In this document: in pieces, positions 36,375 to 48,504 of the stretch
Layout: the number at the start of each line of letters is the position of its first letter
Position numbering within the stretch: the first letter of the stretch is position 1
DNA from: Pseudoxanthomonas sp. CF385
Lineage (GTDB): Bacteria > Pseudomonadota > Gammaproteobacteria > Xanthomonadales > Xanthomonadaceae
Reading direction: 5' to 3'
DNA: 64,000 bases
Assembly: GCF_900104255.1 (NCBI RefSeq)
Contig: NZ_FNKZ01000002.1
Location: 558,001 to 622,000, forward strand
The notes under the pieces: model-generated
Databases searched by the model: none
Told to the model about the DNA's origin: nothing
The model's input: the letters and a program-made list of their open reading frames with translations, nothing else
Position numbers and translations under genes: made by a program

Positions 36375-36382
36375 TTGTAATC

Positions 36383-36401
36383 GCAAATCATTCTCATTAT
36401 C
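36383..36401. promoter_or_regulatory. Fur-box-like site upstream of siderophore receptor
   Basis: GCAAATCATTCTCATTATC matches the classical 19-base Fur consensus at 14 of 19 positions by my count, with an intact right half (TCATTATC). It lies 51 bases before a small membrane protein and the Fiu-like receptor. Confidence 0.6.
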
Positions 36402-36802: not shown

Positions 36803-36939
36803 AGCTGCGTTGGCCCACGCCCCGCGCGTGGTGCCCGCTCCCGTGCGCCGCACACCGCGCACGAACCGAATCCCACTTTTCTCCCTCTGCCCCGTAGCTA
36901 TCGCCACCGGGTCATCCGTCCAAGCACCCAAGGATGCCT

Positions 36940-39201
36940 ATGAACTTCCGTCCCTCCCCCCTGACCGCCGCCCTGCTGATGGCGATCACCGCCCCGGCCC
37001 TTGCCGCTCCTGTCGGCGAAGCGCCGGCCGATGCCGCCATGCAGGCCAAGGAACTGGACACCGTCGAGGTGCACGGTGAACGCGTCCAGAAGGCCAGCTC
37101 GCCGAAGTACACCGAAGACCTCGTCGACACGCCGCAGACGATCACCGTGGTGACGAGCGAAGTCATGGCGCAGCAGAACCTGCTGGGGTTGAAGGACGTG
37201 CTGAGCACGCTGCCCGGCATCACCTTCGGCGCCGGCGAAGGCGGCGGCGGTTATGGCGACAGCATCAACCTGCGTGGCTTCAACGCCACGACCGACATCA
37301 CGGTCGATGGCGTGCGCGACAGCGCCCAGTACACCCGAACGGACAACTTCAACCTCGAGTCCATCGAACTCATCAATGGCGCCAACTCGGCCATGTCGGG
37401 TGCGGGCTCGGTCGGCGGCAACATCAATCTGGTCAGCAAGACTGCGCGCGAGGGCGATTCCAGCACTTTCACCCTGGGTGCGGGCACGGACAGCTTCACT
37501 CGCGCGACGGTGGACAGCAATCACGATTTCGGCGGAGGCCAGGCCTTCCGCGTGAATGCGATGATCCACCGCAACGACGTGGCGGATCGCGATGTGGAGG
37601 AGTACAAGCGCTGGGGCCTTGCACCGTCGTTCGCGATCGGCCTGGGTACCGACACGCGCTTGACCCTGAGCTACTTGCACCAGCATGACGAAAACATCCC
37701 GGAGTACGGCTTGCCCTACTTCGCGGCGTACGGCGGCCTGCTGCCGGGAATCAGCCGCGACGCCTACTTCGGCTACCGCAACATGGACACGCAGGAAATC
37801 GACGTCGACGTAATGACCGCCGTGTTCGAGCACGACTTCAACGATTCGATCTCGGTGCGCAGCCTGGCGCGCTATCAGAAGGTGGACCAGTACACCGTGG
37901 TCAACCCCACCCAGGGCACGTGGTGCCTCGACAGCGGCATCAACCCGGCCACGGGCGCGGCATGCCCGACGGGCACGCTGCCGGGCACGTACCTGCCGAG
38001 CGGCCCCCGCGGCACCACGCGCGACACCACCAATGGGCTGGCGCTCAGCCAGACCGACTTGACCGCGCGCTTCACCACCGGCGGTGTCGAGCACGCCCTC
38101 GTCGCCGGTGTGTCCTTCATGCACGAAACCTACGACCTCGACAACGGCAACATCCAGCGCAACCCGAACGGGACCGCGCCGACCTATCCGCTCATGGACA
38201 TCCATGACCCGGACAACGTCTACACCGGCCCCGTGAACTACATCCGGGGCGGCAAGACCACCGGCACGCTGGACAACCAGGCGCTATACGCTTTCGACAC
38301 GCTGAAGTTCGGCCCGAAGTGGGAACTCGCGCTCGGCGCGCGCTACGAACACAATGAAGGCGACACGCGCACGCTGACCTACGCCACCCCGGCCGCCGGC
38401 GGCGCGATCACAGTCGGACCCAAGTTCCGCAACGAAGACGAGCTGTTTTCCTACCGTGCGGGGCTGCTTTTCAAGCCCGCCGACAACGGCAGCATCTACC
38501 TGTCGTACGCAAACTCGAAGACGCCATCGAAGGGCTCCGTCAACGGCGCCTGCACCTTGCAGACGTGCGAAGTCGACCCGGAGACGGCGGTCAACATCGA
38601 GCTCGGCACCAAGTGGAACCTGCTGGACGAACGGCTCGCCGTCACGGCCGCCGTGTTCCGCAACGAGCGTCAGAACTACAAGGTCGCCGACCCCAACAAC
38701 CCCGACAATCCCTCCGGCACGCAGCAACTGGACGGCAAGGCGCGCGTCGACGGCATTGCGTTGGGCGTGGCCGGCAACATCACTCGTCAATGGTCCGTCT
38801 TTGCGAACTACACCTACTTGGATAGCGAAGTGCTCCAGAGCGTGTCGGACTTCGTGCGTGAGACCACAGGCATCGATGCGCAAGCGGGCAATCCGCTGCC
38901 CAATACGCCGGAGCATTCGGCAAGCGCCTGGACCACGTATGCCCTGCAGGATTGGACCTTCGGTTACGGCGCCACGTACCAGGGCGATTTCTACACGGCC
39001 AGCACGGCCAATGCGCCGCGCGTGAAGAGCTACATCATGCATCGCGCCATGGTCGGTTATCAGTTCAACCCCCGCTTCGGCCTGCAGCTCAACGTCGACA
39101 ATCTGTTCGACAAGCAGTATTTCACGCGCGTGCGCAACAACGGGTGGGCCACGCCGGGCGCTGCACGCTCGGCAGTGCTCACCGCCACGATCAGGTTCTG
39201 A
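36940..39201 (+). CDS. fiu: TonB-dependent catecholate siderophore receptor (Fiu-like)
   Basis: A 753-residue outer-membrane receptor. It has a signal peptide (MNFRPSPLTAALLMAITAPA, then LAA), a plug domain with TPQTITVVTSEVMAQQNL and SINLRGFNATTDITVDGVRD, and a 22-strand barrel ending in a terminal Phe (LTATIRF). Such receptors import ferric catecholates using TonB energy. ATG 36940 is preceded by AAGGA at five bases; ATG 36934 overlaps that site. The piuC gene follows, the same pairing as Fiu-YbiX and PiuA-PiuC. The exact ligand is inferred. Confidence 0.93.
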   Translation: MNFRPSPLTAALLMAITAPALAAPVGEAPADAAMQAKELDTVEVHGERVQKASSPKYTEDLVDTPQTITVVTSEVMAQQNLLGLKDVLSTLPGITFGAGEGGGGYGDSINLRGFNATTDITVDGVRDSAQYTRTDNFNLESIELINGANSAMSGAGSVGGNINLVSKTAREGDSSTFTLGAGTDSFTRATVDSNHDFGGGQAFRVNAMIHRNDVADRDVEEYKRWGLAPSFAIGLGTDTRLTLSYLHQHDENIPEYGLPYFAAYGGLLPGISRDAYFGYRNMDTQEIDVDVMTAVFEHDFNDSISVRSLARYQKVDQYTVVNPTQGTWCLDSGINPATGAACPTGTLPGTYLPSGPRGTTRDTTNGLALSQTDLTARFTTGGVEHALVAGVSFMHETYDLDNGNIQRNPNGTAPTYPLMDIHDPDNVYTGPVNYIRGGKTTGTLDNQALYAFDTLKFGPKWELALGARYEHNEGDTRTLTYATPAAGGAITVGPKFRNEDELFSYRAGLLFKPADNGSIYLSYANSKTPSKGSVNGACTLQTCEVDPETAVNIELGTKWNLLDERLAVTAAVFRNERQNYKVADPNNPDNPSGTQQLDGKARVDGIALGVAGNITRQWSVFANYTYLDSEVLQSVSDFVRETTGIDAQAGNPLPNTPEHSASAWTTYALQDWTFGYGATYQGDFYTASTANAPRVKSYIMHRAMVGYQFNPRFGLQLNVDNLFDKQYFTRVRNNGWATPGAARSAVLTATIRF

Positions 39202-39274
39202 TCGCGGGCACCGTAGTCCCCCTGCGCCCCGCCCATGCACAATGGGCGGGGTTTTCTGTCCGAGGTAAACCGAC

Positions 39275-39961
39275 ATGCTGCTGGCGATTCCGGATGTCCT
39301 GACTCCCGCGCAGGTCGCACAAGCACGGGCGCGGCTGGACGCCGCCAACTGGACGGATGGCCGCGTCACCGCCGGCTACCAGTCAGCCAAGGCCAAAGAC
39401 AACGCCCAGTTGCCGGAGGACGCACCGGCGGCGCGCGAGGTCGGCGCCTTGATCCTGGATGCGCTGTCGCGCAACAGCACGTTCTTCTCCGCGGCGCTGC
39501 CCAAGCGCATCTATCCGCCGCTGTTCAACCGCTACGACGGGGGCCAGTCGTTCGGCTACCACGTCGACAATGCAATCCGCTACGACCGCAGCCGCGGGGG
39601 CGTCGATCCCGTTCGCACGGATCTGTCAGCCACCCTGTTCCTCAGCGCACCCGACGAGTACGACGGGGGCGAGCTGATCATCGAAGACACCTTCGGCACG
39701 CAGAGCGTGAAGCTGCCCGCCGGCCACATGGTGCTCTACCCCGGTACCAGCCTGCACAAGGTGACGCCGGTGACGCGCGGCGCACGCGTGGCCTCGTTCT
39801 TCTGGATGCAGAGCATGGTGCGCGATGATGGCCACCGCCGGCTGATGTTCGAACTGGATGTGTCCATCCGCCGCCTCACCGCCGACGTGCCGGAACACCC
39901 GGCGCTGGTCCAACTCACCGGGGTGTACCACAACCTCCTCCGGCAATGGGCGGAAACCTGA
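39275..39961 (+). CDS. piuC: PKHD-type Fe(II)/2-oxoglutarate hydroxylase (PiuC/YbiX)
   Basis: A 228-residue cytoplasmic dioxygenase. The metal and cosubstrate motifs are present: [14 protein letters not shown] (HxD), [14 protein letters not shown] (distal His, Arg). The N-terminus is [20 protein letters not shown]. PiuC-like enzymes are encoded next to iron receptors in many proteobacteria and are induced by iron limitation, but their substrate is not settled. Start ATG 39275 has GAGG about nine bases upstream. It is 73 bases after the receptor stop. Confidence 0.95.
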
Positions 39962-39993
39962 GGGGCAAACAAGAGCCAACCTTGTTTGCACTT

Positions 39994-40009
39994 GATAAGT
40001 ATTCTTATC
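39994..40009. promoter_or_regulatory. Fur-box-like palindrome upstream of second receptor unit
   Basis: GATAAGTA and TTCTTATC form an almost perfect 16-base palindrome (one mismatch), rich in the GATAA/TTATC halves of Fur sites. It lies in the gap after piuC, 78 bases before the small membrane protein gene. Confidence 0.55.
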
Positions 40010-40086
40010 TAGAATGTCCGTTACGGCTCGCTTGCACGGCGGGCCAGGGGACCTTCTTGAACCAGCCGCCTGACAAGCCGACCGCC

Positions 40087-40512
40087 ATGCCTGCGCATGG
40101 GATGGCGCACGCGCCATGGAAGCGCGTGGCCGGCTGGGCATTGTTCGTATTCGGCCTGGCGCTGCTGCTGGGTTCGGGCCTCCCCGATCTGTCGCATACC
40201 TCAGCCGCTAGCGAATCCGACGCGGCCACCGCACCGGCCTTCGTCTTCCACGACCTGCGCGACCACGGTGAACCCCGCGAGGAGCAGCATCGGGACACGC
40301 CGGCCAAGAAAGCCAGGCTCACCGCGCTGAAGGTGCTGACCGAGCGCGCCCCACAGTATGCGCGTGGCGTCGCATTCACCCTGCAGGCATCGCTGCCTGT
40401 GCCGGACATGCGTTCACGCGCAATCCCGGCCATGCCGGCTGCTCCCGGCGCATTGCATCGGCCCGACCCCGCGTTGAGCCTCCACTACGGCCAGGCGCCT
40501 CCGGCCGCCTGA
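40087..40512 (+). CDS. Small membrane-anchored protein preceding second TonB receptor
   Basis: A 141-residue protein of unknown family, beginning MPAHGMAHAPWKRVAGWALF. One hydrophobic segment (about 14-31) ends in a glycine/serine region, so it may be an anchored or secreted protein facing the periplasm. The rest is charged, with HDLRDHGEPREEQHRDTPAK, and has an Ala/Pro-rich C-terminus. It lies between a Fur-like palindrome and the receptor at 40618. TTG 40056 is a possible earlier start. Its placement mirrors the small protein at 36452, though I see no convincing sequence match between them. Confidence 0.6.
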   Translation: MPAHGMAHAPWKRVAGWALFVFGLALLLGSGLPDLSHTSAASESDAATAPAFVFHDLRDHGEPREEQHRDTPAKKARLTALKVLTERAPQYARGVAFTLQASLPVPDMRSRAIPAMPAAPGALHRPDPALSLHYGQAPPAA

Positions 40513-40617
40513 TCCGCATCCTGCGGCCCGATCCGGCCGCCCTTCGCTGTTCGCTCCCTGCAGCCCGCGCTTCCGCGCGAAGGCCGCCCCTTTCTTCATC
40601 CCATCAGACAAGACCCC

Positions 40618-42984
40618 ATGAACGTCACCCGCACGTCCGTGCCCGCGCCGCTGCGCCGCCATCCCCTCGCCATCGCCCTGCTGGCCTTCGCCACCGCACC
40701 CGCGGTCGCCCAGACAGCGCCGGATGCCTCCGATGCCAACACCCTCGACACGGTGGTCGTGACGGCCTCCGGCTTCGAGCAGAAGATCACCGACGCGCCC
40801 GCCAGCATCAGCGTGATCACGCGCGAAGAGTTGCGCCAGCGGCCCTACATCACCCTGATCGATGCCGTCCGCGACCTGGAAGGCGTCGACGTCGGCGAAA
40901 CCTCAGACAAGACCGGCCAGAAAACGGTGAGCATCCGCGGCATGGGCCCGGATTACACGCTGATCCTGATCGACGGCAGGCGCCAGAACAACCACGGCGA
41001 CATTTATCCGAACTCCTTCGGCGGCAACCAGTTCAACCACATTCCGCCGCTGGACATGATCGAGCGCATCGAGGTCATCCGCGGCCCGGCGTCCACCCTG
41101 CACGGCGCGGATGCGCTGGGTGGCGTCATCAACATCATCACGCGCAAGGTCTCCGACCGCTGGCGCGGTTCGGCGACCCTCGGTCGCAGCATTCAGGAGA
41201 ACAGCGACTTCGGAAGCGACAGCACCGCCGACTTTGCGTTGATGGGGCCGCTGGTGAAGGACCGCCTGGGCCTGGGCGTGCGCGGATCGTGGTACGAGCG
41301 CGATGCCTCCACGCCGGAGTACGAAACCATCACGGCACCTGATGGCACCGTGTTCGAGCGTGCACTCGGCTTCGGCGGCGGCGGCAAGACGGTGGACAAC
41401 ACCAACAAGAGCGCCGGCGTGACGTTGAGCTGGACGCCGACCGACACTCAGAGCGTGATCTTCGACTACGACACCTCCAAGCAGGTGTACGACAACACGC
41501 CGTACCTCAACAATCTGGGCACCGAGACCTACCCGCTGGGCACGGTGGACGGCCTGGCCGGCATTTGGCGCGCTGCGCCGCAGGTCGGCTACGCCGCGGA
41601 CCAGGAGTTCACCCGCGACCAATGGTCAGTGACCCACCAGGGCCAATGGGCGTTCGGCAACAGCTTCGTCTCGCTCGCGCACATCGACACCGGCAACCAT
41701 GGACGCACGCTCCCGTTCACCGTCGCCGAACGCCTGCTGCATCGGGACATCTACTGCAACAACGCCGCGACCTGCGCGACGGGCGCGTACGCAGGGCTGA
41801 CGCGCGCGCAGCGCCAGCAGTTGGCTGTGGATACCTTCCTGCCGCGCCCGAAGCGCACCATGGAAAGCCGCCAGTACACGCTGGACGCCAAGCTGGACTT
41901 CGCCGTCGGCGACGCGCACCACTTCATCGTCGGCGGACAGGCCATCGACGGTGAACTGGAAGACGGCGTGTTCGGCATGGAAGGCGGCGGCGACGGCGGC
42001 GGCACCGTGCAGGACCACAAGATGTGGTCCGTCTTCGCCGAGGACAACTGGAAGCCGATCGAGCGCCTGACCATCACGCTGGGCCTGCGTCACGACGACC
42101 ACAACGTGTTCGGCAGCCATCTCAGTCCGCGCGCGTACGCCGTGTGGGACGTCAGCGATGCATGGACGGTGAAGGGTGGCGTGAGCACGGGCTTCAAGAC
42201 GCCCAAGACGACCGACCTGTACGACGGCATCACCGGCTTCGGCGGCCAGGGCACTTCGCCCTTCGTCGGCAATCCCGACCTGCAGCCGGAAACCAGCATC
42301 AACAGCGAGATCGCGGTCTACTGGACCTCGGCCGACGACGCGCACACCTTCAATCTCACGGTGTTCCGCAACGACTTCGACGACAAGATCGCCCGCGGCG
42401 AGACCAGCCTGAGCTGCGAACAGACCGGCGGCGTGCGCCCCTGCGCGAACCTGGGCGACTACGCGCAGCTCGGCTACACCACGTATGCGCAGAACATCAA
42501 CATCGACGAAGTGCGCATCCAGGGCGTCGAAGTGGCGGGCCGTTGGGGCATCACCGACGCGCTGTCGCTGCGCGCCAACTACACCTACACCGACAGCGAG
42601 CAGCTGAGTGGTGCGCAGCAGGGTCTTCCGCTCACGAATACCGCCAAGCACATGGCGAACACGAGCCTCAACTGGCAGGCGACGGAGAACTTCAGTCTGC
42701 AGTTGCTGGCGGAAGCGCGCTCGAAGCGCTATCGCGACGTCATTAACGGTGTGCGACGCGACTACGAGGACTACACCGTCCTGCACCTGGGCGCGCAGTA
42801 CCGGTTCAACGAGCACGTCTCGCTGTCCGGCCGCATCAACAACCTGCTGGACGAAGACTTCACCACGTTCCAGACGGTGTGGACGCAGGACGCCAGCGGT
42901 GCGTACGCACCCAGCTACCTCGACGACTACAACAACAAGGACAAGTCGCGGAACCTGTGGCTGAGCCTCAACGTCAACTTCTGA
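40618..42984 (+). CDS. TonB-dependent receptor (FepA/CirA-type iron receptor)
   Basis: A 788-residue outer-membrane receptor. After a signal peptide ending in AVAQ, a TonB box-like [13 protein letters not shown] precedes the plug ([40 protein letters not shown]) and barrel, which ends in Phe (LSLNVNF). Paired cysteines occur in extracellular-loop regions ([17 protein letters not shown]). The plug resembles FepA/CirA/BfrA receptors for catecholates. It differs in type from the Fiu-like receptor upstream. A perfect hairpin follows the stop, then a Fur-like site and the reductase-like gene set. Confidence 0.92.
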
Positions 42985-42995
42985 GGCCTTGGGAC

Positions 42996-43021
42996 GTTCC
43001 CCTTCCTGCGGGAAGGGGAAC
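42996..43021 (+). terminator. Hairpin terminator after second receptor gene
   Basis: Perfect 11-bp stem (arms 42996-43006 and 43011-43021, four-base loop) 12 bases after the receptor stop. The T-run is weak, so termination may be partial and let some transcription reach the downstream genes. Confidence 0.65.
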
Positions 43022-43028
43022 ACTCTTC

Positions 43029-43048
43029 AATTGAGAGCCATTCTCATC
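43029..43048. promoter_or_regulatory. Fur-box-like site before PepSY reductase operon
   Basis: The segment TTGAGAGCCATTCTCATC closely resembles the TGAGAAT-n-ATTCTCA form of the Fur box common in gamma-proteobacteria. It ends about ten bases before the PepSY-protein ATG, so bound Fur would block that promoter. Confidence 0.65.
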
Positions 43049-43057
43049 TGTGATGTA

Positions 43058-43729
43058 ATGGCCGCCCCGCGCCCTCCTGCCTTCGAGACGCCGTTGTCCC
43101 CATCCGCCTCCCCCGCCCTGCAACAGCAACGCCGTGGCTTCTGGCTGCGCACGCTGCATCAGTGGCACTGGATCAGTTCGGCGGTCTGTCTGGTGGGGAT
43201 GCTGCTGTTCACGATCACCGGCATCACGCTCAACCATGCCGCCCGGATCGAAGCCAAGCCCGAGGTCAGCAACCGCACGGCCACGTTGCCGGCGCCCGTG
43301 CTCGCCGGCATGGGCGATCGCCAGGAAGGCAACGCGCCGCTGCCGCCGCCGGTTGCCGGGTGGCTGGAAGACGAGTTGTCCATCGCCATCGGTACGCGAC
43401 AGGCGGAATGGTCCGATGTCGAGGTGTACCTCTCCATGCCGGGCCCCGGCACCGACGCCTGGTTGAGCATCGACCGCGAGACCGGCGCCGTGGAGTTCGA
43501 GCGCACGAACCGCGGCTGGATCTCCTACTTCAACGACCTGCACAAGGGCCGCAATGCCGGAACGGCCTGGAGTTGGTTCCTGGACATCTTCGCGGTGGCC
43601 TGCCTGGTGTTCTGCATCACCGGGTTGTTCCTGCTCTACCTGCACGGCCGCCAGCGCCGCATGACCTGGCCGATGGTCGGCCTGGGCCTGTTGGTGCCGC
43701 TGCTGATCGCCCTGCTCTTCATCCACTGA
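43058..43729 (+). CDS. PepSY-associated transmembrane protein
   Basis: A 223-residue inner-membrane protein. Helix one, [20 protein letters not shown] (about 37-56), is preceded by LRTLHQWHW, whose histidines could bind heme or metal. A periplasmic PepSY-like region follows ([14 protein letters not shown] to [19 protein letters not shown]), then [20 protein letters not shown] and two more helices. This layout belongs to PepSY_TM proteins of iron-reduction systems such as PiuB/FpvG types. No good ribosome site precedes ATG 43058; the Fur-like site is there instead. First gene of a likely five-gene operon. Confidence 0.85.
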
Positions 43730-43758
43730 TCCCCCTCCCCGCACCCACGAGTGACCGC

Positions 43759-44292
43759 ATGTCCAAGATCGCCGTCCACACCACGCTGACCATCGCACTC
43801 AGCGGCCTGCTGGCCGCGCCGGCCTACGCCGCCACCCTGGACATCAATGTCGAAGTCCCCAAGCTCAACGTCGCCGAATACCACCGCCCGTACGTGGCGA
43901 TCTGGATCGAGGGCGCCGACCAGAAGGTCGCCGCCAACCTGTCGGTCTGGTACCAGCAGCGCGACACCGCCGAAGGCCACGGCACCAAGTGGTTGCCCGA
44001 CATGCGCCAGTGGTGGCGCAAGTCCGGCCGCACGCTGAAGGTGCCGGTGGATGGCGTCACCGGCCCGACCAAGCCGGTGGGCAAGCACGCCCTGAGCTTC
44101 ACCGACAAGCAACCGCAGCTGGCCAACCTGGCGCCGGGCGACTACACGCTGGTCGTCGAGGCCGCGCGCGAAGTCGGTGGCCGCGAACTGCTGAAGATCC
44201 CCTTCAGCTGGCCGGCCAAGAAGCCGCCGCAGACCGGCAAGGCGCAAGGCACCACCGAACTCGGCGCCGTCACCCTGTCCGTCAAACCCTGA
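43759..44292 (+). CDS. DUF2271 periplasmic protein
   Basis: A 177-residue exported protein with a signal peptide ([20 protein letters not shown] then YAA). The mature domain has [20 protein letters not shown] and [20 protein letters not shown], followed by [13 protein letters not shown], which fits DUF2271. The fold is probably a beta sandwich. DUF2271 genes often sit next to DUF4198, PepSY and ApbE genes beside iron receptors. The function is unproven; a periplasmic partner of the reductase is likely. Start ATG 43759, 29 bases after the previous gene. Confidence 0.87.
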
Positions 44293-44323
44293 TCCCCTTC
44301 CACGTACGCAGCTGGAGATTCCG

Positions 44324-45136
44324 ATGAAGCGTTCCCTTGCCGTGGCCATTGCCCTGGCCTCCGTCATTCCCGCCAGCGCCCTGGCCCACAAGGCCTGGAT
44401 GATGCCGTCGCAGACCGTCATCGCCGGCACCAATCCGTGGATCACGGTGGATGCCGCAGTGTCCAACGACCTGTTCTACTTCAACCACGTGCCGCTGCGC
44501 ACCGAAGGCCTGGTCATCACCGCGCCGGACGGCAGCACGGCGGAGGCGCAGAACCTCGCCACGGGCAAGTACCGCACCGTGTTCGACGTCGAACTGAAGC
44601 AGCAGGGCACCTACCGCATCGCGACCGTCAACAAGGGCCTGATGGTCCGCTGGGAAGGCGCCGACGGCAAGCCGGCCGGCCTGCGCGGCGCCAAGCCCGA
44701 GGACCTCGCCACCAAGGTGCCGAAGGACGCGAAGAACCTGCAGGTCTCGCAGTCCGTCGGCCGCGTCGAGACGTTCGTGACCAATGGTTCGCCGAACGAC
44801 ACCGCGCTGAAGGCGACCGGTGAGGGCCTCGAGCTTTTGCCCGTGACGCACCCCAACGATCTGTTTGCCGGCGAGCAGGCCAAGTTCAAGATGCTGGTCG
44901 ACGGCAAGCCGGCAGCGGGCCTGGAGTTCGAGATCACCCGCGGCGGCACGCGGTACCGCAACGCCCAGGACGAGATCAAGGTCACCACCGACGCCAACGG
45001 CGAGTTCAGCGTGACCTGGCCGGAAGCCGGCATGTACTGGCTGGAAACCGGCACGGAAGACACCAAGACCACGATTCCGCAGGCCAAGCAGCGTCGCCTG
45101 AGCTACGTGGCCACGCTGGAAGTGCTTCCGCAGTAA
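44324..45136 (+). CDS. DUF4198 periplasmic protein
   Basis: A 270-residue exported protein. The signal peptide [20 protein letters not shown] ends before [10 protein letters not shown], the histidine at the mature N-terminus being characteristic of DUF4198. Two beta-rich halves are visible, the second (about 190-260) resembling a bacterial Ig-like or CNA-B-like domain with [23 protein letters not shown]4198 proteins are often near metal-uptake genes, and some may bind metal through the N-terminal His. Role here is inferred from context. Confidence 0.87.
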
Positions 45137-45178
45137 GCCGCAACGCGTCGCCGGGCTCCGGTCCGGCGGCGTTACCGC

Positions 45179-46171
45179 ATGAACGCGACTCTCTCCGCTT
45201 CTTCCGCACCGACAACGCCCGTGCAGGCCCTGCATGGGCACACGATGGGCACGACCTGGTCGGTGCGCTTCCATGCGCGCATGCGTACGGATCTGCACAC
45301 GCTGCATGACGCCGTGCAGGCGCGTCTCGACCGCGTGGTCGCCGAGATGAGCACCTGGGAACCGGATTCGGACATCAGCCGTTTCAACCGCGCGGATGCC
45401 GGCACCTGGTGCGTGCTGCCGGGAGGGTTCGCCACCGTCCTGGCCGCTGCCCTGGAGGTCGCCGCACGCAGCGAAGGCGCCTTCGATCCGACCATCTCCC
45501 CGCTCGTCGCGGCCTGGGGCTTCGGCGCGCATGCCCATGCGCGCGGTCGCCCGTCCGATACGGCGCTGGCGCAGGCGCGTGAGCGCGTCGGGTGGAAACA
45601 CCTGTCATTCGATCCGACGGCCGGCCGCGTACTCCAGCATGGCGGTATCACCCTGGATCTGTCGGCGATCGCCAAGGGCTACGGCGTGGACGTGGTGGTC
45701 ACGTTGCTCCGGCAACGCGGGATCGACGCTGCTCTGGTCGAGGTCGGTGGCGAACTCTATGGCTACGGTCGCAAACCCGACGGGCAGCCGTGGCGCGTGC
45801 TGGTCGAATCGTCCCCGGACGAGGAGGCCGACAGCGAGGGCCTGGAGCCTCGCGTGCTGCGACTGGACGGCATCGCCGTGGCCACCTCGGGCGATCGCTG
45901 GCATGCCTACGAACATGACGGCACGCGCTACTCGCACACGATCGATCCTCGCACCGGCGTTCCGGTCAATGACGTGGCGGCCGCCGTCACCGTCGTCGCC
46001 GATACCGCGATGCAGGCGGATGCCTGGGCGACGGCGCTCACCGTGATGGGCACGCAGGCGGGCCACGCGCATGCCGCGGCGCTCGGCCTGGCCGCCCGCT
46101 TCCTCGAACGCACCCCTGAAGGCCTGGTGGAACGCGCGACCGCGGCCTTCGAACGGCATCTCGACGCATGA
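45179..46171 (+). CDS. apbE: FAD:protein FMN transferase (ApbE)
   Basis: A 330-residue flavin transferase that attaches FMN covalently to a Thr/Ser in a target protein, using FAD. Motifs: HTMGTTWSVRFHARM, GAFDPTISPLVAAWGFG, LDLSAIAKGYGVDVVV, and the late YSHTIDPRTGVPVNDVAAAV and DAWATALTVMG with the metal-binding Asp and Thr. There is no obvious signal peptide, unlike many periplasmic ApbE proteins. Its target is unknown; a neighbour in this operon is the natural candidate. Overlaps the next gene by four bases. Confidence 0.94.
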   Translation: MNATLSASSAPTTPVQALHGHTMGTTWSVRFHARMRTDLHTLHDAVQARLDRVVAEMSTWEPDSDISRFNRADAGTWCVLPGGFATVLAAALEVAARSEGAFDPTISPLVAAWGFGAHAHARGRPSDTALAQARERVGWKHLSFDPTAGRVLQHGGITLDLSAIAKGYGVDVVVTLLRQRGIDAALVEVGGELYGYGRKPDGQPWRVLVESSPDEEADSEGLEPRVLRLDGIAVATSGDRWHAYEHDGTRYSHTIDPRTGVPVNDVAAAVTVVADTAMQADAWATALTVMGTQAGHAHAAALGLAARFLERTPEGLVERATAAFERHLDA

Positions 46172-47808
46172 GTCGGATGCCGGTGGGATCCACTTTCCGC
46201 GCACGCGTGGGCAATGCGCTCGTGTTGGCGGTGCTCGCTGCTATCGCCGTATTGATGGCCCGTTGGCAGGGCGGCGACTGGTGGGTGGCCACGCCCGCGA
46301 CCGCACGATGGGCCGTGGCGGGTGCTGCCCTGTTCGCCTACGTCGGACTCACGGCCGGCTGGCTGTGGTGGGCGCACCGACGGGATCGCGCGGTGTCGCC
46401 AAGCGATGCGGTGCCGCACGACGCTACGTGGATCGTGCATGCGAGCCAGACCGGTTTCGCCATCGAACTGGCCGACCTGACAGCGGAATCCCTGCGCAAG
46501 GCCGGCATGCAGGTGCAGCGCTGCGCCCTCGAACATCTGGATGGCGAACGACTGGCCACCATCCCGCAAGCGCTCTTCATCGTCAGCACCACGGGGGAAG
46601 GCGACCCGCCGGATCCGGCGTTGGGATTCGTACGATCGGTGATGGGCCGTCCCGCGACGCTGGCGCATTTCCGCTACGCCGTCCTCGCCCTCGGCGATCG
46701 CGAGTACCAGCACTTCTGTGCCTTCGGCCACCAGTTGGACGACTGGCTGCGCCGGCACGCTGCGCAGCCCCTGTTCGATCTGGTCGAAGTCGACAATGCG
46801 GACGACGGCGCCCTGCGCCACTGGCAACACCATCTGGGCCAGATCAGTGGGAGTGCCGATCTTCCCGACTGGGAAGCGCCGCGTTATGCGACGTGGTCGT
46901 TGGCCGAGCGTCGGGAGCTGAATCCCGGCAGCCTGGGCGGTCCCGCGTTCCACATTTCCCTCGCGCCTCCTGCCGCAGCATCCGCGCAGTGGGAGGCCGG
47001 CGATATCGTCGAGATCGGTCCGCGGCATGCGCGCGCCGACGTCCACGCCTTCCTGCAATCGATCGGCTGCTCGCCCGATGAACGCGTGACCTGGCAGGGC
47101 GAACATTGCTCACTGGCCGATGTGGTGGCGGCAAGCCAATGGCCTTCGATGCCGGCCCATCCGGGCACCGTCTCGGCGCAATCCGTGGCGGACGCGGCCG
47201 TGCCGTTGCCCCATCGTGAATATTCGATCGCCTCGATCCCGAGCGACGGTGCCCTGCACCTACTGGTACGTCTGATGACGCGCGAGGACGGTGCGCCGGG
47301 ATTGGGCAGCGGCTGGCTGTGCCGGCATGCCGTGCCCGGAGACGGCATCGCGTTGCGCATCCGCCGCAATCCCAATTTCCACGCACCCGCGCCCGACGTG
47401 CCGATGATCCTGATCGGTAACGGAACGGGACTGGCGGGCCTGCGTGCGCACCTGCGTGCGCAGGAGCGCGTGGGTGCGCACCGCAACTGGTTGCTGTTCG
47501 GTGAGCGCCAGCGTGCGCACGACGACTTCCACGGCGAAGAGCTCGCGCGTTGGAAGGCCGAGGGCCACCTGGAGCATCTGGACCTGGTGTTCTCACGCGA
47601 TGGCGGATCGCATCGCTACGTACAGCATGCGTTGCGGGCGCAGTCACAGCGGCTGCGCGACTGGATCGACGCGGGTGCCGCGATTTACGTCTGCGGCAGC
47701 CTGGAGGGCATGGCGCCGGGCGTGGATGAGGTCCTGCGTGAAGTGCTTGGCGATGCCCGGGTGGAAGCGCTGCTCGGCATGGGTCGTTACCGCCGCGACG
47801 TGTACTGA
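46168..47808 (+). CDS. Membrane-bound flavodoxin/FAD-NADPH reductase (sulfite reductase alpha-like)
   Basis: A 546-residue protein with two N-terminal helices (VLAVLAAIAVLMARW and AVAGAALFAYVGLTAGWLWW). A flavodoxin domain follows (ASQTGFAIELADLTAESLRK, STTGEGDPPDPALGFV), then an FAD/NADPH reductase domain (HREYSIASIPSDG, LIGNGTGLAGLRAHL and the C-terminal AIYVCGSLEGMAPG). The order is like sulfite reductase alpha or cytochrome P450 reductase, but tethered to the membrane. It can move electrons from NADPH through FAD and FMN towards the membrane, fitting a donor for iron reduction via the PepSY protein. Overlaps apbE by four bases. Confidence 0.9.
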   Translation: MSRMPVGSTFRARVGNALVLAVLAAIAVLMARWQGGDWWVATPATARWAVAGAALFAYVGLTAGWLWWAHRRDRAVSPSDAVPHDATWIVHASQTGFAIELADLTAESLRKAGMQVQRCALEHLDGERLATIPQALFIVSTTGEGDPPDPALGFVRSVMGRPATLAHFRYAVLALGDREYQHFCAFGHQLDDWLRRHAAQPLFDLVEVDNADDGALRHWQHHLGQISGSADLPDWEAPRYATWSLAERRELNPGSLGGPAFHISLAPPAAASAQWEAGDIVEIGPRHARADVHAFLQSIGCSPDERVTWQGEHCSLADVVAASQWPSMPAHPGTVSAQSVADAAVPLPHREYSIASIPSDGALHLLVRLMTREDGAPGLGSGWLCRHAVPGDGIALRIRRNPNFHAPAPDVPMILIGNGTGLAGLRAHLRAQERVGAHRNWLLFGERQRAHDDFHGEELARWKAEGHLEHLDLVFSRDGGSHRYVQHALRAQSQRLRDWIDAGAAIYVCGSLEGMAPGVDEVLREVLGDARVEALLGMGRYRRDVY

Positions 47809-47818
47809 TACCGCGCCG

Positions 47819-48424
47819 TCACAACGAGGCATCACGCCGCGCGGAATCCTCGATACGGATGGCCAGCAGCTCACCTCCCCCCTGCAGCGCGTATCGCCTG
47901 CGGCCTTCCGTCGACACGAGGAACGCCGTGTCTCCGGTCCAGAGCGGAGGCAACCCGTCCGCGATATCGAACACTGCCTGCCCCGCCAGCAAATGGATCG
48001 CCCAGGTGACGCCGGGTTCGGCAAAGAACAACATCGTCCCCACCAGCGGGCGATGGAACAACTCCGCCCGCACCGCATCGCGCCGCCACATCAGATTGAA
48101 GTCGTGCGTCAGGCCATCGACCAGTTCGCCGTGCACGTCGTCTTCACCCCGGAAGCGCAGCTTTCCGTGCGGCGGCTCAAGCGTTACGCAGCGCCCATCG
48201 GTGAAGCGGAGGCGCAGCCCATTCCCGCGCACCAGCACAAGTTCCCGGTCGACGCCGGGAAACGACGAGAAGGCCGCATCGCGCTCGATTTCCGCGATCG
48301 ACAACCGCCAACGCCAGGCGTCGTCGTCGGGAACACGGATGATCTCGCGCGTCCATCCGAGTCCGTTCTTCCAGCGCTCGCGCCGGTACTCGTTGGCCGG
48401 AATGACGTGCGATGCCTCCCGCAT
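47819..48424 (-). CDS. HutD/Ves family cupin protein
   Basis: A 201-residue double-cupin protein. It starts MREASHVIPANEYRRERWKN, continues with NGLGWTREIIRVP and WRLSIAEIERDAAFSSFPG, and has DGLTHDFNLMWRRD, all typical of the HutD/Ves family. HutD is linked to histidine use and Ves to temperature response, but neither activity is established and no hut genes are near. ATG 48424 has a GGTGGGG upstream; TTG 48439 is a weaker alternative. Its stop lies ten bases from the stop of the convergent reductase. Confidence 0.87.
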   Translation of the reverse strand: MREASHVIPANEYRRERWKNGLGWTREIIRVPDDDAWRWRLSIAEIERDAAFSSFPGVDRELVLVRGNGLRLRFTDGRCVTLEPPHGKLRFRGEDDVHGELVDGLTHDFNLMWRRDAVRAELFHRPLVGTMLFFAEPGVTWAIHLLAGQAVFDIADGLPPLWTGDTAFLVSTEGRRRYALQGGGELLAIRIEDSARRDASL

Positions 48425-48504
48425 GAGAACCCCACCCAATGTCGATGCGCGATTCTAGCCCGACATCACCTGTGCCCCTCGACCTCCACTTATCGCAGAA
48501 AGCA

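Follow-up and report, generated by a model that had tools for sequence, protein, structure and literature searches.

In a 64,000-nucleotide stretch of the genome of Pseudoxanthomonas sp. CF385 (contig NZ_FNKZ01000002.1; hereafter, the window), five genes follow one another in the same direction, encoding a PepSY_TM_like_2 protein, DUF2271, DUF4198, ApbE and a flavodoxin-type reductase using reduced nicotinamide adenine dinucleotide phosphate (NADPH). With a probability of about 0.7, we consider them an operon repressed by Fur whose products serve iron assimilation by sending electrons to the periplasm, by way of hemes and of a DUF2271 protein carrying flavin mononucleotide (FMN). According to this model, NADPH would reduce the membrane-anchored flavodoxin reductase at the cytosolic face, and electrons would cross the membrane via two b hemes of the PepSY protein (the inner one held by His37/His196, the outer one by His60/His162) to reach an FMN that ApbE would attach covalently to Thr104 of periplasmic DUF2271. 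FMN-loaded DUF2271 would reduce ferric chelates or siderophores. The metal or the chelate would be bound by DUF4198, the mature form of which is predicted to begin with His, and Fe2+ would enter through FeoB.

Modules of this kind are already known, and the cluster is another member of the PepSY-like flavinylated system described by Meheust et al. in 2021 (PMC8238504; statements on published work here draw on parts of the cited sources). As far as searched, two features are new: a listed start codon lying within a probable -10 box, and a cluster ApbE without an export signal beside a Sec-signalled DUF2271. Both, as well as a Pro in the flavinylation motif, had been overlooked in the original prediction for this DNA.

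The five-gene cluster and its putative promoter

The original prediction of five consecutive genes in the above order, with the last two overlapping, was borne out by Pfam matches, the ApbE stop and the reductase ATG sharing four bases (46168-46171). The features of the cluster, in window coordinates, are the following:

43031..43059, + strand: putative sigma-70-like promoter TTGAGA-17-TGTAAT, proposed by comparison and overlapped by a Fur-type box (43032-43046)
43058-43729, + strand: PepSY open reading frame as listed, if begun at ATG
43094..43729, + strand: PepSY_TM_like_2 three-helix membrane protein (Pfam PF16357, 4.9e-85; start by frame comparison)
43759..44292, + strand: DUF2271 periplasmic protein with a Sec-type signal, predicted flavin carrier (PF10029, 7.8e-51; N-terminus read by eye)
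44050..44070, + strand: flavinylation motif D98-G-V-T-G-P-T104, with Thr104 as the predicted FMN acceptor (motif reading and 114-row alignment)
44324..45136, + strand: DUF4198 periplasmic protein, probable metal binder (Pfam DUF4198, 7.3e-59)
44387..44389, + strand: His22 codon, predicted N-terminal residue of mature DUF4198 (from a putative cleavage site)
45179..46171, + strand: ApbE FMN transferase without export signal (PF02424, 1.1e-82)
46168..47808, + strand: membrane-anchored CysJ-like NADPH flavodoxin reductase (Flavodoxin_1, 4.9e-23; NAD_binding_1, 3.3e-6)

DUF2271 was found in 47 of the 150 genomes searched in the order and in 81 of 397 in the phylum, 75 of them above the family cut-off. 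The loci read comprised 149 fetched sequences and the window, and 149 of these 150 were matched by the profiles. All five genes were present in 77 loci (window included), with identical strand and order in 76; the remaining loci were without ApbE, without the reductase, or carried ApbE-DUF2271 fusions. Rows scoring below 90 (DUF2271) or 120 (ApbE) were left out of alignments, tree and motif counts, while the fusions were kept in the tree. The closest named relative is L083 from Pseudoxanthomonas sp. Root630, with a 97% identical DUF2271. In L104, a Stenotrophomonas pictorum contig, PepSY was matched in two frames, as in a broken gene or an assembly fault.

The Fur-like site reported ahead of the module was recovered at 43032-43046 (TGAGAGCCATTCTCA), with two mismatches to TGAGAATnATTCTCA. 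At up to three mismatches, the window holds three matches vs. 0.44 expected, a number reached in one of 100 shuffles. With a slightly relaxed pattern, 76 of 115 clusters had a box with at most three mismatches close to the start of PepSY, compared with 15 of 575 shuffled stretches and none of 115 downstream stretches. The Fur-type box is, hence, conserved above chance. Two weaker sites, with three mismatches each, are located upstream of the first of two receptor genes described below (36382-36396) and between a dioxygenase gene and the second receptor gene (39993-40007).

The start at 43058 assumed by the original prediction fared less well, as this ATG overlaps a -10-like hexamer, TGTAAT (43054-43059), situated 17 bases past TTGAGA (43031-43036). 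Starts were compared over five-gene loci of the window's family (f1) and its sister family (f11), 41 of them with the box as searched and 13 without it. Among the 41 boxed loci, the hexamer at the -10 position was TGTAAT in 20 and TCTAAT in 8, and an ATG equivalent to that at 43058 occurred in 19; it was in frame in four (the window, L055, L057 and L075), in two of which (L055 and L075) it soon meets a stop. In the close relatives L083-L089 and L093, the ATG is out of frame and the counterpart of TTG 43094 offers a start in frame, with two more candidate starts just upstream of it in L088. Judged by this comparison, ATG 43058 probably sits inside a promoter -10 element and the conserved PepSY start is probably TTG 43094. 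A leaderless start at ATG 43058, suggested by its nearness to the Fur box, was discarded, since the frame comparison favours a -10 box instead. It counts against the promoter that a consensus scan of 39900-48500, which demands an A at the second -10 position, returned none; no terminator was found in the same scan.

The predicted flavin carrier and an ApbE without export signal

The expectation that ApbE flavinylates a partner was in line with our results, and the predicted partner can be named: DUF2271, at Thr104 of DGVTGPT. Of 114 aligned DUF2271 rows, 113 have Thr and one has Ser as the acceptor; directly before it stands either Ala (64 rows) or Pro (50 rows). Such a motif was detected in none of 115 PepSY proteins and in a single row each of DUF4198 (1/114), the reductase (1/84) and ApbE (1/92). 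The CF385 genome gave one DUF2271 match and one ApbE match, that of the operon, and no FMN_bind protein was found in it. The ApbE of Amantichitinum ursilacus flavinylates the DUF2271 of that species, and the modification is lost when Thr is exchanged for Ala (PMC8238504). In a review of ApbE, the motif is written D-x-x-[S/T]-G-A-[S/T], and an Ala-to-Val exchange is reported to cut flavinylation to about half (PMC12052999). The N-terminus of DUF2271 reads as a Sec-type signal. Tat export was also considered and found no support, with a Tat-type motif in 0 of 114 rows.

The Pro at motif position 103 was distributed unevenly by ApbE type: 49 of 74 rows whose ApbE is unsignalled have it, compared with none of 13 whose ApbE is signalled. 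It also occurs in one of the 27 rows for which no local ApbE was counted, namely L104, where the contig ends within the ApbE gene. Because most Pro rows are close relatives, this residue reflects few events. Eight loci (L046, L048, L050, L177, L179 and L181-L183) encode ApbE-DUF2271 fusions, mostly with hydrophobic N-termini, and in seven of the eight the DUF2271 portion that was matched shows no [ST]Gx[ST] motif; L183, which falls outside the 114-row count by the score cut, reads SGPT.

The window ApbE starts with MNATLSASSAPTTPVQALHGHTMGTTW and shows no hydrophobic stretch, signal peptide or lipobox, so that it does not classify as an exported ApbE; the frame extends only 14 codons further upstream before it closes, a stretch that offers no alternative start. 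Over 92 ApbE rows, S237 (99%), H253 (97%) and D281 (98%) are conserved, which we matched to Ser241, His257 and Asp285 of Vibrio ApbE by order and spacing, unaligned. Export signals were called by a hydropathy rule and by eye rather than with SignalP. PepSY, DUF2271 and ApbE occurred together in 95 loci, the window among them. After three fusions and L104 were subtracted, 78 of the resulting 91 cluster ApbEs were without an export signal, while 13, mostly from family f11, carried one. Some G loci duplicate the genomes of named loci (e.g., L054/L092, L063/L096 and L067/L100). Further, among 13 f1 genomes (window included) with an unsignalled operon ApbE that were searched for ApbE, 12 have no other; the thirteenth, G102, also carries an ApbE-DUF2271 fusion.

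As a control, we took 28 genomes whose DUF2271 cluster has no recognised adjacent ApbE. An ApbE was found in 27 of them, the remaining genome, G109, being in 460 contigs. All 30 control ApbEs read had a lipobox or a signal peptide, out of 37 places found, seven of which were not given as loci. An exception within the control is G064, where the cluster does include a divergent, signalled ApbE (L041 and L233, the same gene). In a tree of 140 deduplicated ApbE rows, built by a quick method and unrooted, a branch with a Shimodaira-Hasegawa-like approximate likelihood ratio test (SH-aLRT) value of 99 united the cluster ApbEs (101 rows) and left L041 and the fusions outside. This side comprised 89 unsignalled ApbEs (75 from the cluster and 14 from a related cluster type) and 12 signalled ones.

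The related cluster type (L184-L187, L189-L193, L196-L198, L200 and L201) combines an unsignalled ApbE with a flavoreductase that is more distant and with a divergent DUF2271, matched by Pfam and missed by our profile; its 14 ApbEs form a supported group within the cluster-ApbE side of the tree. In eight cluster ApbEs outside the window's family (L110, L111, L144, L146, L154, L156, L165 and L173), the N-terminus displays a short element [V/I]-[L/I]-[I/V/L]-P after a polar residue, in the place that a signal peptide would occupy.

The combination of a sole, unsignalled ApbE and a Sec-signalled DUF2271 suggests, as the simplest reading, that flavinylation of DUF2271 precedes its export. More tentatively, and at somewhat less than even odds, an ApbE clade dedicated to the DUF2271 module may have left the periplasm, with flavinylation occurring in the cytosol and the FMN-bearing preprotein then passing through Sec. 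The chemistry of the cytosolic step is possible, since the published flavinylation of DUF2271 was obtained with signal-less DUF2271 and ApbE expressed in E. coli (PMC8238504); FMN-bearing DUF2271 would then still have to pass through Sec. In Klebsiella, a soluble fumarate reductase is served by an ApbE in the cytosol, but this target stays inside (PMC12052999). The count of export signals has its weak points. Among the 78 ApbEs counted as unsignalled, three (L162, L166 and L172) are without a readable start and six (L134, L135, L138, L139, L168 and L178) are borderline, with proline-rich N-termini. For one ApbE, a growth test showed that a cytosolic form could not stand in for the exported form (PMC12052999), a warning that the location of ApbE matters. 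Neither an unsignalled ApbE in DUF2271 clusters nor the TGPT motif is mentioned in the consulted text of PMC8238504, PMC11334425 and PMC12052999, though the supplementary tables of the 2021 study may hold them.

The proposed electron path, its substrate and rival explanations

The PepSY protein has three hydrophobic segments, and conserved His residues are found at both membrane faces. Over 115 rows and numbered from ATG 43058, His37 is conserved in 99%, His60 in 93%, His162 in 100% and His196 in 83%. As the siderophore reductase FoxB has two heme sites, each formed by a pair of His (PMC11334425), the PepSY protein may likewise bind an inner heme through His37/His196 and an outer one through His60/His162. 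FoxB (PDB 7abw) and the window protein are both PepSY-like, the latter matching PepSY_TM at 1.1e-11. Unlike FoxB, the window protein belongs to PepSY_TM_like_2, is short, has three helices and comes with partner proteins; the structural match is weak. A sequence search of solved structures gave no match for the PepSY protein or DUF2271.

In the reductase, the flavodoxin, flavin adenine dinucleotide (FAD) and NADPH motifs are conserved, including a Ser476-Arg477 pair (99% and 98% of 84 rows) that we take, from CysJ and CPR, to read NADPH. Its NCBIfam match is CysJ-like, under the family cut-off. One or two N-terminal hydrophobic segments were observed in 73 of 86 rows and none in eight, with five not anchorable. 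The genome has a FeoB_N match of 186 bits. Elsewhere, it contains one further full-length PepSY_TM match (1.5e-60; G000:C1:2159662-2160819). The route from NADPH through the flavoprotein and the PepSY protein to the periplasm, as originally put forward, is plausible, in agreement with motifs, conserved His residues and a published model, although as a module idea it is not new.

That model, by Meheust et al., covers 3220 PepSY-like clusters, 2833 with DUF2271 and 1500 with DUF4198, for which iron reduction was proposed (PMC8238504). The window resembles it in the PepSY-like membrane protein (PF03929/PF16357 in the published definition) clustered with flavinylation genes, in DUF2271, DUF4198 and ApbE, and in the link to Fur. 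It departs from it in that the reductase is a separate gene, whereas NAD-binding domains were counted on the PepSY gene; in that the motif reads TGPT, with the acceptor Thr kept, instead of the [S/T]GA[S/T] reported as conserved; and in that the ApbE tested there had a signal peptide, removed for expression. The published definition also includes a signal peptide on at least one of ApbE, an FMN-binding protein, DUF3570 or DUF2271, which by our reading is present in the window on DUF2271 and absent from ApbE. In Caulobacter, CC_3059-3063 (CCNA_03155-03159) comprises the same five gene kinds in the order of the window, under iron and Fur control, and the five genes rise 12- to 51-fold over two tabulated columns (PMC3751524). 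Its PepSY gene is labelled "transporter", and transposon insertions in the locus cost fitness in ethylenediaminetetraacetic acid (PMC12004947).

DUF4198 is a probable metal binder. Ala-His at its predicted cleavage site is invariant (114/114 rows), and its fold matches two solved metal-bound proteins, IsDUF4198 (PDB 9gcb) and "Zcp" (9mhl-9mhn). With these structures and the published flavinylation of DUF2271 (PMC8238504), the statement in the original prediction that both DUF proteins lack a known job is outdated. Counted from the mature N-terminus and without residue alignment, IsDUF4198 also uses His18, the second His of its metal brace, where the window and 100 of 114 rows have Trp; by the same kind of count, the title of a Zcp mutant names His29, His31 and His142, compared with an N-terminal H-K-A in the window. 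For DUF4198, the sequence search of solved structures returned weak matches; these are the Zcp entries, filed as "Phosphoribosylglycinamide formyltransferase". In PDB 9mhi-9mho, the molecule bears that name while the entries are titled Zcp, with a DUF4198 fold.

Three other explanations were weighed against FMN-DUF2271 carrying electrons to ferric iron. ApbE could act in the cytosol on a cytosolic protein, leaving DUF2271 here without covalent flavin and the Pro variant as the trace of a lost modification. The absence of an export signal from ApbE and the confinement of Pro103 to rows with an unsignalled rather than a signalled ApbE (49/74 vs. 0/13) fit this view, which we nevertheless regard as unlikely: 113 of 114 rows retain the acceptor Thr, the genome gave a single match each for DUF2271 and ApbE and none for FMN_bind, SGPT also occurs in the L183 fusion, where ApbE and DUF2271 are joined, and no other cluster protein keeps the motif, a genome-wide motif search not having been made.

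It is a little less likely still that the module reduces or delivers copper, nickel or zinc, with DUF4198 as the binder. The nearest solved proteins of the DUF4198 fold do hold Ni, Zn, Cu or Co (PMC12537917), but the Fur-type boxes, the iron regulation of the Caulobacter operon and the iron response of DUF4198/DUF2271 genes in Alteromonas (PMC7190382) argue for iron. A PepSY protein working as a siderophore permease instead of an electron carrier, as was suggested for larger Alteromonas PepSY proteins with 4-8 helices (PMC7190382), appears highly improbable in view of the three hydrophobic segments and the conserved His on both membrane faces of the window protein, and of the NADPH flavoreductase and ApbE encoded in the same operon.

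The ferric siderophore named as substrate by the original prediction can only be inferred. In the fetched stretches of 11-13 kb, TonB receptors accompanied the module in 19 of 19 f1 loci (a list without the divergent f1 loci L048 and L049) and in only 2 of 14 f11 loci. Since receptors lie near f1 modules and mostly not near those of f11, the evidence for a siderophore link is lineage-specific only.

Neighbouring genes and significance

The two iron receptors said to adjoin the module were both found upstream of it, with a dioxygenase gene between them:

36934..39201, + strand: TonB-dependent siderophore receptor, most like Fiu (subfamily TIGR01783 above cut-off)
39275..39961, + strand: PiuC/YbiX-type Fe(II) dioxygenase
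40618..42984, + strand: TonB-dependent receptor, CfrA/FepA-like (equivalog matches, all under cut-off)

Downstream, a HutD/Ves-like gene on the opposite strand faces the operon. The Fiu-like receptor followed by the PiuC/YbiX dioxygenase (36934-39961) is a pair of the type named cciT/cciO in Caulobacter, and cciT homologs have been tied to clinical cefiderocol resistance (PMC12004947).

For the Pseudoxanthomonas/Stenotrophomonas/Luteimonas group, our reading links five genes with uninformative names into a single, testable route of electrons serving iron uptake and points to Thr104 of DUF2271 as the residue of interest. It also raises the question of on which side of the membrane an exported DUF2271 receives its covalent flavin. 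If flavinylation does precede passage through Sec, models of periplasmic flavin supply and of Sec cargo would need revision. Cytosolic flavinylation would break the rule that exported proteins are flavinylated outside the cytosol and, with FAD plentiful inside, an FAD exporter would no longer be needed.

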